Positions 44,308 to 47,016 of a DNA stretch of 64,000 bases are shown here, in pieces. Origin of the DNA: an uncultured Candidatus Entotheonella sp. (GTDB lineage Bacteria > Tectomicrobia > Entotheonellia > Entotheonellales > Entotheonellaceae). Where the stretch lies: contig OX639990.1 of NCBI GenBank assembly GCA_951828535.1, positions 2,219,300-2,283,299 of the forward strand, written 5' to 3'. Position numbers and translations under genes: made by a program. How positions within the stretch are numbered: the stretch's first letter is position 1; the number at the start of each line of letters is the position of its first letter. The notes under the pieces are model-generated. The model saw nothing but the letters and a program-made list of their open reading frames with translations. It made no database searches and was not told where the DNA came from.

Positions 44308-44553
44308 GAAGCCCGTATTCCACGGTGATACGCTGTATATCGAGACGGAAGTCATGGACAAGCGGGAGTCGCGGTCGCGCCCGGATACTGGGGTGGTGTT
44401 TTTCGAGCACCGCGCGACCAACCAGCGCGAGGAGCTGGTGGCGCGAATTCGCCGGGCGGGCTTGATGCGTAAGAAGCCGTTGTGAGATCCGGACGGGCGG
44501 GGTGATTTAATCGTCGTCCTCGCAGAGTGCCCGCAGCATGGCCCAGGGGTAGA
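44306..44553. repeat. Direct repeat copy B with maoC 3' fragment
   Basis: This is the counterpart of copy A (39982-40225). Positions 44306-44485 encode the last 60 residues of the MaoC protein in frame ([18 protein letters not shown]...KKPL) but lack the first 93, so this is a non-functional maoC remnant. The repeat continues into the intact DUF971 gene to 44553. Confidence 0.9.
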
Positions 44554-44845
44554 TGCCGGTGCGGTGGCCGTCGTCCCATTCGATGCCGAGGGCGTAATGG
44601 CCCACGGTGTTCAGGTGCACCGGCTGCACGTCTTGGGTGGTGACGGTGGTCACGGTCTGGAAGGGGTTTTTGGCCGCTTCCTGCTGTTGGGTGCGCAGTT
44701 CGCCGCAGGTGGCGCAGGGGCAGACGCGGCGCAGATTGCTGTATTCATAGAAACAGACGCGCCCATCGTTCCACAGGATGCGCAGGGCGCCGCCGTCGTT
44801 GCGCTGAATTTCCACGGGGTAATACGATTCCAGCGATTCGGCCAC
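44507..44845 (-). CDS. DUF971 / gamma-butyrobetaine hydroxylase N-terminal-like protein
   Basis: A 112 aa single-domain protein of the DUF971 family: ILWNDGRVCFYEYSNLRRVCPCATC supplies the cysteine cluster (C-P-C-A-T-C), and HYALGIEWDDGHRTGIYPWAMLRALC is the second conserved block with its histidine. Members bind zinc or an Fe-S-related metal and are linked to Fe-S cluster proteins (apbC/mrp neighbours in other genomes). It is convergent to the maoC remnant. Its 3' end is part of repeat B, but the gene is intact. Confidence 0.87.
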   Translation of the reverse strand: MAESLESYYPVEIQRNDGGALRILWNDGRVCFYEYSNLRRVCPCATCGELRTQQQEAAKNPFQTVTTVTTQDVQPVHLNTVGHYALGIEWDDGHRTGIYPWAMLRALCEDDD

Positions 44846-44997
44846 AATCGACCTTTCTGCTCGCCTTGTTCTCGGTATCGCTCACTGGTTAGAAGTGAAC
44901 GGTGCCGTCGCCTCGGCCGGACCACCCTTGGTTGATCGCCGCAGTCGTAAAGCGGAATAACCATTCGAGATGCGCTGACGGGCACTTTCGCGGGCGT

Positions 44998-45549
44998 TCA
45001 GACGCGCGGTAGCATCTCGACGGTCTCGCCCAGCAGGACATCGTCTTCGCCGTGCAGTTCGTTCATCCGACCGTAGAGCGTTATGCCGACGTCTATACCG
45101 GCTTTCCGGGCGATGAATTCGTCGGCTTTGATCCAGAAGAAACCTGATGGCCTAGCGCGGAAAGCGATGCCCGCGCCAGTCAGGATGCTGCCGAAGGGGC
45201 GAACGCCCTCGATAAACTCCGGACGTAACGGCGCCGGGAAGGCATCCAGCACGATACGGATGGTGGCCAGTTCCACCACTTGCCGGGTGCCTTTGGTGTA
45301 CAGCGCGATGAAGCGGTAGAGCGAGCGATCTTCGACAATCAGGTCATCCGCCACCAAATCTACAGTCAGCGATTCGCTCCAGTGGGCCTCGAGAGTGGCC
45401 GTCATACCGGTGTCGTGGACCAGGAGCTTGTGGTAAGTGCCGGGAACTTGCTCGGGGGATGCGACATGGATCGCCGGCGCCTCCATCGACAGGCGGCTCC
45501 AGAGCTTGCGGACCAACTCGTCGGTCTGATCGCGCTCATCCCCCCCCAT
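44998..45549 (-). CDS. Chorismate-lyase-like (UbiC/DUF98-type fold) protein
   Basis: A 183 aa soluble protein whose second half (IRIVLDAFPAPLRPEFIEG, RPFGSILTGAGIAFRA, GFFWIKADEFIARKAG) resembles the chorismate lyase/UTRA-like superfamily, where a P-L/F-G-x-I-L motif follows the central sheet. The conserved arginine expected for chorismate carboxylate binding is not certain. No ubiquinone genes are adjacent. The start is ATG 45549; the beginning of the domain cannot be fixed. Treat the family call as tentative. Confidence 0.5.
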   Translation of the reverse strand: MGGDERDQTDELVRKLWSRLSMEAPAIHVASPEQVPGTYHKLLVHDTGMTATLEAHWSESLTVDLVADDLIVEDRSLYRFIALYTKGTRQVVELATIRIVLDAFPAPLRPEFIEGVRPFGSILTGAGIAFRARPSGFFWIKADEFIARKAGIDVGITLYGRMNELHGEDDVLLGETVEMLPRV

Positions 45550-45609
45550 TGACTACAGTTCCGTTTTTAATGCGTAAATCGTGCGACATGAGGGTCCTTA
45601 CCTCTGAAC

Positions 45610-45713
45610 TTAGAGCAGTTCAAGATTGAAAGGAATCTCGATTCAAACCAGACAAATGGACTCGCTTTTCAGGGCTTCTGGGTATGCCACTGCGCAATCT
45701 TGAGCTGTTCTAA
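45610..45713. mobile_element. MITE-like element with 19 bp terminal inverted repeats and TA ends
   Basis: TTAGAGCAGTTCAAGATTG (45610-45628) and CAATCTTGAGCTGTTCTAA (45695-45713) match at 17 of 19 positions as an inverted repeat enclosing 66 bp of non-coding DNA. The outer TA dinucleotides could be the target duplication of an IS630/Tc1-type transposase. No transposase is present. A transcription-terminator role is possible but the spacing is long. Confidence 0.55.
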
Positions 45714-45855
45714 TGTGCGTCCCGTTTGAGATAACGAGTTTTTCGGAGTTGGAGTTCCTGCGAGGGCGTTTTGCCATGACCGGACGAGCTTCCACCAAAG
45801 TTCTTGGTATCAAAGTGAAGTCGCTCTAGTGGTCCAACCGCCCCGGGATTTTCCG

Positions 45856-46120
45856 ATGGGCTACGGGTTTTTTTAGCGCGCCCGTATTATCGGGACGGAC
45901 CTTGACGATGGTGCTGTCCATCGAAACCGCCTCGAACTTGATGCGCGCGATTCTCTCTCGCTGGGAGATGCTCGAAGACCCGATCCAGCGCCCCGTTCTT
46001 CGACCAGCGGCTCATCTAGGTGTAATGGGCATGCCAATTGCCAGATCACTCCGGCAACCTCCGCCACATGCAGCCATGCTCGACGACGTACAGGCTGGCA
46101 TCGAGCACTTGGCAGATTCG
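45856..46120 (-). pseudogene. Decayed IS5-family transposase N-terminal remnant
   Basis: Translating the minus strand across frames gives CQVLDASLYVVEHGCMWRRLPE-stop, GNWHAHYT-stop, MSRWSKNGALDRVFEHLP, then (frameshifted) MDSTIVKVRPDNTGALKK. These match the G-x-x-W-R-x-L-P-E, N-W...Y-x-R-F-x-R-W-x-K-x-G and D-S-T-x-V-K motifs of IS5 transposases in the correct order. Two in-frame stops and one frameshift show it is dead. The surrounding gap 45550-46237 contains only this relic and the MITE-like element. Confidence 0.8.
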
Positions 46121-46237
46121 ACAGGTTGACGTTGCCACATTGCACCAGCAAACAGGGCGCTATGCGTCGGTACTGAGAGTCGGCGATTTCCATCCCGGGA
46201 CTGGAACACGATACAGTCCGACAGTGTTAACCCGGCT

Positions 46238-46903
46238 CTAGCCGCGTCCCTCATCCACGCGACGGCGCGCCTCCGAAGCGGCAGCGACCGTCGCCGAGGC
46301 GGGTTTCTTGATTTCCATGACGTACGGACGCGGGGCGGCAATGTTGTACAGCGCGTGGAAAAGCTCCACGTCGTCCGGCCCTTCCCAGGCCCCGGCATCG
46401 AGCTTGATGAAGGTGGGCTGATAGCCGTCGAAGAGGATAGTCGGCACGCCGAAAATGTCGTGCTCGTCCGCTTCCTGATGGTCGGCGCCGACGGCAGCAC
46501 GGTACTTGCGGGTGCGCAGGTCCTCGGCCAACACGGTGGGGTCGACATCGACCTCGCGGGCCAACTGCATCAGTTCGAGGGGATTGGCAATGTCCCGCTT
46601 CTGCTGGTGGTGCGCACGGAACACGGCGATATGGAAACGGTTGAAAGCGTCCTCGCCCTGCTCAGCCAGGATGCTCATGGCGGCCTCATGCGGCGGGATG
46701 TCGCGGCTGGTGAAACGGGGGTCATCCCAGGCTTTCCATTCCATTCCGCGGCGACTGTTGACTTGCTCGAGCAGAAACGACTTCCAGGTAATTTTCAGGT
46801 TTTCGCCCAATTTGTCTTTCACGCGATCGAGCCACTCCGCGGCTCGCCAGGCGTATGGTCAAACGTAACAACTCCAGATGGTGAAGTGGTAGCCTTGACT
46901 CAT
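46238..46903 (-). CDS. DsbA-family thioredoxin-fold protein, probable selenoprotein (in-frame TGA = Sec15)
   Basis: Read from ATG 46903 (strong AAGGAG 7 nt upstream) the protein is 221 aa, beginning MSQGYHFTIWSCYV-[TGA]-PYAWRAAEWLD. The TGA at 46861-46859 occupies the position of the nucleophilic cysteine in the V-C-P-x-x motif of DsbA/FrnE/HCCA-isomerase-like proteins; the residue at the resolving-Cys position is Ala. After the TGA the frame stays open for 206 codons with full family conservation (ITWKSFLLEQVNS, IFGVPTILFDG with cis-Pro). A SECIS-like hairpin starts right after the TGA. Conventional gene finders would start at GTG 46822 and lose the active site. A nonsense mutation is the alternative. 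Confidence 0.72.
46821..46854 (-). promoter_or_regulatory. Candidate bacterial SECIS hairpin
   Basis: On the minus strand, 18 nt after the TGA, stem CGAGCC (46846-46841) pairs perfectly with GGCTCG (46833-46828) around a 7 nt loop GCGGAGT that begins with G and contains GG. A lower stem ACGC (46854-46851)/GCGT (46824-46821) extends it across an internal loop. Distance, upper-stem length and loop guanines fit the bacterial SECIS rule seen in fdhF. Confidence 0.6.
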
Positions 46904-47016
46904 GAAGGTTCTCCTTGCTGCGTTGCGGACCGTGCGGCCCTTGCATGGTGTGAATGGGAAAGGTCGATGGTAGCATACCGCCTTGGCATTGTCAGGGCGC
47001 TGGCAGGTGACGGAAC

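Follow-up and report, generated by a model that had tools for sequence, protein, structure and literature searches.

A predicted DsbA-fold selenoprotein with a CxxUP active site in an uncultured Candidatus Entotheonella

The Sargasso Sea and GOS surveys already recorded DsbA-like selenoproteins, with active sites of the UxxC and UxxV types (PMC1088965, PMC2398784), and Table 1 of a 2026 review distinguishes a DsbA-like form 1 (UxxC) from a form 2 (DxxUP, PF01323, MDP6049977.1), giving CxxUP for no DsbA-like family (PMC13188914). On the side of the Cys-containing proteins, a review devoted to the thiol reductases of Deinococcus describes DR_2335 of Deinococcus radiodurans as DsbA-like, with a single conserved Cys and a predicted location in the cytoplasm; neither functional nor expression data were available for it (PMC8945050). 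Here, we describe a gene on the minus strand (46238..46903) of a 64-kb stretch of DNA from an uncultured Candidatus Entotheonella sp., the whole of which is referred to as the window. We conclude that this gene is almost certainly a true selenoprotein gene and, judging from its sequence, that it very probably encodes a selenocysteine (Sec)-containing oxidoreductase of the DsbA fold.

The gene starts with an ATG at 46903, continues for 13 further codons to an in-frame TGA at codon 15 (46861-46859), and then stays open for 206 codons up to a TAG stop (46240-46238). With TGA translated as Sec (U), the product comprises 221 residues, begins MSQGYHFTIWSCYVUPYAWRAAEWLDRV and carries Sec15 at the position of the catalytic Cys (CYV-U-PYAW). 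The ATG is the sole start codon between the preceding in-frame stop and the TGA, and is preceded at a distance of 7 nt by the ribosome-binding site AAGGAG (46911..46916, minus strand), a purine-rich counterpart of which lies 5′ of the ATG in the related genes L035-L038. A Pfam scan of the product matched the DSBA domain PF01323 with 59.5 bits (cut-off 25.6, E 5e-16) and, weakly, the Rv2466c-like model with 28.2 bits (cut-off 27), while no NCBIfam model scored above its cut-off. These results bear out the initial annotation, which had placed an in-frame TGA at the nucleophilic Cys, behind a strong ribosome site and start and ahead of a family-like frame, and had predicted that automatic annotation would truncate the protein at GTG 46822; without readthrough, the ORF list indeed shows only 194 aa from that GTG.

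TGA at codon 15 was recovered in nine further genomes (protein identity 33–96%), bringing the Sec genes to ten with that of the window. Genome searches with stops read through gave matches with a single TGA from a genome of the same genus (OY282375.1, deposited as 'uncultured Candidatus Entotheonella sp.'; 96%), from two genomes of the family (74% and 69%) and from two genomes of other phyla (49% and 33%); a named collection, followed by a profile search, contributed L039 (Tectomicrobia), L040 (Nitrospinaceae) and the TGA genes of genomes G153 and G290. Extending the search to the wider phyla of the two outlying Sec genomes recovered just those genomes, and all ten belong to lineages named Entotheonella, Tectomicrobia or Nitrospinota. 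In each of the ten genes, the TGA stands immediately before a Pro aligned with Pro16.

The same collection yielded 43 Cys loci, belonging to Chloroflexota, Dormibacterota and Deinococcota, in which the site reads DYLCPY, DYLCPF or a close variant, and all 38 aligned single-Cys homologues place their Cys (codon TGY) exactly at residue 15, as the selenoprotein reading had anticipated. In an alignment of 46 sequences (8 Sec and 38 Cys, with U entered as C), residues 15 (C/U), P16, H99, P154 and T155 are invariant. A maximum-likelihood tree of 50 rows united nine Sec proteins, all with CxxUP at the active site, in one clade with full support, and grouped the tenth, L046 (DYLUP), with a Cys protein from Chloroflexota (support 91/90). 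Cys and Sec have hence been exchanged more than once, in a direction that the uncertain root of the tree does not fix.

The plain 194-aa frame from GTG 46822, together with the remnant of an IS5 element just downstream in the window genome, would also fit a true stop at codon 15, in which case the locus would be either a decayed gene or a 14-residue leader followed by reinitiation at the GTG. However, the TGA is flanked on both sides by matching coding sequence in ten genomes, with no TAA, TAG or indel at codon 15 among the ten Sec genes or the aligned relatives, and a start at GTG 46822 would delete the first strand together with the active site from a fold that is otherwise predicted with confidence, which makes termination at this codon very improbable.

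The bacterium, a member of the Entotheonella group, is of the sponge-symbiont type. The host genome, a single contig of 3.62 Mb, encodes the complete Sec machinery that the initial annotation had proposed to look for: selA (512 bits), selB (80 bits for its wing domain), selD (319 bits) and a selC product, the tRNA-Sec, that scored 74 bits against a gathering threshold of 47 and was called by ARAGORN as tRNA-SeC with anticodon UCA. SelB was found in seven of the eight Sec genomes tested, the remaining one having tRNA-Sec, which is also present in genomes G153 and G290. A TGA within an otherwise open frame could in principle reflect a reassigned code, in which TGA encodes Trp or some other residue. 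We rejected this explanation, to which we give practically no credence, as long ORFs in the window end in TGA more often than in any other stop (23 of 40), the homologues carry Cys rather than Trp at the site and the Sec machinery is complete; readthrough of TGA is thus specific to the site.

Just downstream of the TGA, the minimum free energy fold contains a hairpin (46828..46846, minus strand) of eight pairs, one of them G·U, which joins 46846-46839 with 46835-46828 around a GGA loop, the stem beginning 12 nt past the TGA. The initial annotation had correctly described a loop with G first and containing GG, but its distance of 18 nt and its stem of 6 bp were slightly off. A small apical loop containing G, in a hairpin just 3′ of the TGA, is a feature of bacterial SECIS elements (PMC1088965), and the window hairpin matches this description. 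The nine close Sec genes all carry such a hairpin, with a stem of 7–8 bp and the GGA loop lying 20 nt beyond the TGA, and the inner seven pairs are kept at the same position in every one of them; across the nine genes, 100% of the stem cells are paired, as against 34–43% when the pairing pattern is slid. Variation in the stem is one-sided and preserves pairing (G-C/G-U, A-U/G-U, C-G/U-G), so that the search for covariation proposed earlier returned conservation and no compensatory base changes across the nine genes. Covariation is unobtainable here because the stem codons scarcely vary. Constraint on the RNA was told apart from constraint on the protein by two controls. In the first, a comparison of synonymous codons for the same residue among seven genes, codons 21-23 agree in 48 of 48 cases, versus 46% gene-wide.

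In the second control, synonymous codons were redrawn from each gene's own usage. Such redraws rebuilt the 7-bp stem in ~1% of cases for the window gene and in 1.6% for L040, an AT-rich orthologue (GC3 0.26) that nevertheless retains GCC-ACG-GAG, with P ~0.002 from its own codon use. For the GC-rich genes L039, L112 and L114, redraws rebuilt the stem in ~20% of cases, which leaves the control with little power there, and their hairpins are no more stable than the synonymous shuffles. Under a looser criterion, stems of at least 7 bp occur near the corresponding place in only 2 of the 43 Cys homologues, and the RNA of the outlying Sec gene L046 folds into a different hairpin. Rfam, including its SECIS models, gave no match in 46200-46960, with nothing beyond chance at E up to 5. 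Taken together, these observations are good evidence, short of proof by covariation, that a SECIS-like element is conserved here, and we consider it highly likely that the hairpin acts as a SECIS.

To place the product within the DsbA superfamily, we examined an AlphaFold2 model built from the 46-sequence alignment (pLDDT 93.6), which shows a thioredoxin fold with a helical insert and a cis-Pro loop, as in other members of the superfamily, with position 12 after the first strand and Sec15 before the first helix. Among solved folds, the native and C24S structures of D. radiodurans DR2335 matched best, with a Z score of 23.1 and an rmsd of 2.2 over 195 residues, followed by Rv2466c (Z 18–19), FrnE (Z 16–17) and then GST-kappa and DsbA proteins. 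The PDB sequence profiles agree: the DR2335 entry 7dk9 leads at E 6e-56, together with the mutant 7dka, and the entry after these stands at 3e-13. Rv2466c, like FrnE, is a cytosolic DsbA-superfamily enzyme, and its active site is likewise CPxC; both score below DR2335 in fold and profile.

The window protein reads U-P-Y-A at the site, and a Cys at the fourth position is found in none of the ten Sec forms, setting it apart from the CPxC active site of FrnE (PMC8945050). The label DsbA/FrnE-like in the initial annotation thus holds at the level of the superfamily and fails for FrnE itself, the family being a single-Cys, DR_2335-like group, to which the window protein belongs by its full-length profile match and its single active-site Cys or Sec followed by Pro. 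Similar to the window protein, DR_2335/DR2335 (PDB 7dk9, 7dka; 'DSBA-like Trx domain-containing protein') is predicted to be cytosolic and has a single active-site Cys-Pro and no CxxC. By contrast, it carries Cys24 with an Asp at −3 (DFLCPYAW), where the window protein has Sec with a Cys at −3 (CYVUPYAW), and the two share ~22% identity over the structural alignment. From the fold, our best guess is a cytosolic role in thiol-disulfide exchange or thiol transfer, and under our preferred reading the product, a member of the DR_2335-like branch, would act in the cytosol as a thiol-selenol oxidoreductase.

The Cys at −3 is Cys12 (codon TGT, 46868..46870, minus strand), a candidate resolving residue. 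All nine members of the CxxUP clade, including one at 43% identity, read C-Y-V-U-P (CYVUPY), whereas Asp occupies position 12 both in L046 and in the Cys homologues; the position at +3 from Sec, where UxxC selenoproteins have their resolving Cys, is Ala18 in the window protein. The Sec clade has swapped the family Asp at −3 for Cys, which creates a CxxU pair ahead of the slot where CxxC normally lies. With no Cys at the second CxxC position, oxidised selenium would most likely be resolved by Cys12, or else by an external thiol, and we put the chances that Cys12 is the resolving residue at about even.

The contrary reading also takes the protein to be a selenoprotein, with Sec15 working alone as in a DR_2335-like monothiol enzyme, either aided by a low-molecular-weight thiol from outside the protein or acting as an isomerase or transferase in the style of GST-kappa and HCCA isomerase, and with Cys12 incidental. 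The fold matches to GST-kappa and 2-hydroxychromene-2-carboxylate isomerase (Z ~15–16), the fact that every aligned Cys homologue has just one active-site Cys and an Asp at −3, and L046, which bears Sec in the same fold without Cys12, are consistent with this reading. Against it stands Cys12 itself, invariant throughout the clade, even in a member at 43% identity, and arisen where the family has Asp; we regard the monothiol enzyme as a serious contender, though leaning somewhat away from it.

Returning to the preferred thiol-selenol oxidoreductase, SelB with Sec-tRNA(UCA) would decode the UGA at 46861-46859, aided by the hairpin just downstream. Sec15, at the N-terminus of the first thioredoxin-fold helix and beside the cis-Pro loop (V153-P154-T155), would be the nucleophile in place of the Cys of the relatives, and Cys12 (C-Y-V-U), gained by the clade along with Sec, may resolve the oxidised selenium, a task that could alternatively fall to an external thiol. 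The likely partner would be a Cys-containing DUF971/GBBH-like_N protein encoded nearby.

This protein of 112 aa (44507..44845, minus strand; PF06155, E 3e-23) carries a CPCATC motif. Its gene lies directly downstream of the Sec gene in seven other Sec loci (L035, L036, L037, L039, L040, L112 and L114) and follows it at a greater distance in the window, so that it accompanies eight of the nine CxxUP genes, being absent beside L038 and beside the outlier L046; the neighbours measure 112–121 aa, share the motif CPCAxC and, in those scanned, match PF06155 with E 3e-17 to 5e-28. No DUF971 neighbour was found at the Cys loci, in flanks of up to 5 kb. We slightly favour a functional link between the Sec protein and the DUF971 protein on the strength of this gene neighbourhood. 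Motifs of the CPCxxC type can bind metal. The DUF971 protein of the window has, in addition to CPCATC, a conserved GH further on (GC in L039/L040), a pattern that could serve metal binding. The literature on the Fe-S protein HCF101 also takes up DUF971 (PMC7980591).

In the window, 44846-46237 holds an insert of ~1.3 kb that is absent from the same-genus genome and splits the Sec gene from its usual neighbour, the two being adjacent in L035. The insert includes a decayed IS5-family transposase remnant (45829..46194, minus strand; blastn 68–73% to IS5 family transposases, plasmid copies), and the IS-like insert gave no Pfam match, which applies also to a 183-aa ORF (45549-44998) within it. As a result of this split, the pair may no longer be co-transcribed in the window strain. 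At L038 (6314-8237), from a Tectomicrobia genome, the Sec gene has ORFs for a putative ArsR-like regulator, ACR3-like transporter and ArsC-like protein at a distance of a few kb, and these neighbours are probably coincidental.

Among the described DsbA-like selenoproteins, form 2 (DxxUP) is likewise a DsbA-fold selenoprotein with Sec-Pro and, in its listed motif, no further Cys; judged by that motif, the CxxUP clade differs from it (PMC13188914). The Asp at −3 of DxxUP is Cys12 in the window protein and its eight relatives, and is present only in L046 (FDYLUPF), which fits the form 2 motif. Form 1 (UxxC) and the GOS 'DsbA 1-3' (UxxC, UxxV) resemble the window protein in placing Sec in the N-terminal slot of the DsbA active site, but the UxxC type has its resolving Cys at +3, where the window protein has Ala18 and its candidate Cys at −3. 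The claim of a new selenoprotein therefore stands for the CxxUP form with its DUF971 partner, which is outside the list of the 2026 review, and not for DsbA-like selenoproteins as a kind, which are themselves known (PMC13188914, PMC2398784).

The host genome contains another DsbA-type gene whose frame includes a TGA (L118, G000:C1:809700-811600, minus strand), with the active site DYTUPHC (KEFSDYTUPHCRALQ around Sec), a hydrophobic N-terminal segment and its own strong hairpin (GGCGCTCC...GGAGCGC). It is conserved in two relatives (L119 and L120) and fits the known UxxC type of DsbA-like selenoproteins. Related Tectomicrobia-type genomes contain other DsbA-superfamily genes (L098, L103, L089, L023 and L121) with TGA at UPWC- or UPYC-like active sites, such as DYLUPWCYPAAVRL and DFTUPYCYVAT, and these lineages seem to be rich in Sec-containing DsbA proteins.

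The locus adds a well-supported selenoprotein subfamily to a poorly studied, uncultured group, in which annotation would truncate the protein at its active site. Sec and Cys forms of one fold, a solved Cys relative in DR2335 and a clade-specific Cys before the Sec together offer a comparison for what selenium brings to this fold, and the conserved neighbour provides a first functional handle for both the Sec protein and DUF971. We tentatively raise the possibility, doubtful as it is, that a CxxUP centre, with a co-acquired resolving Cys three residues before Sec, and a dedicated DUF971/GBBH-like_N CPCxxC protein form a two-gene selenium-dependent redox unit, which, if true, would represent a type of redox centre unlisted for DsbA folds.
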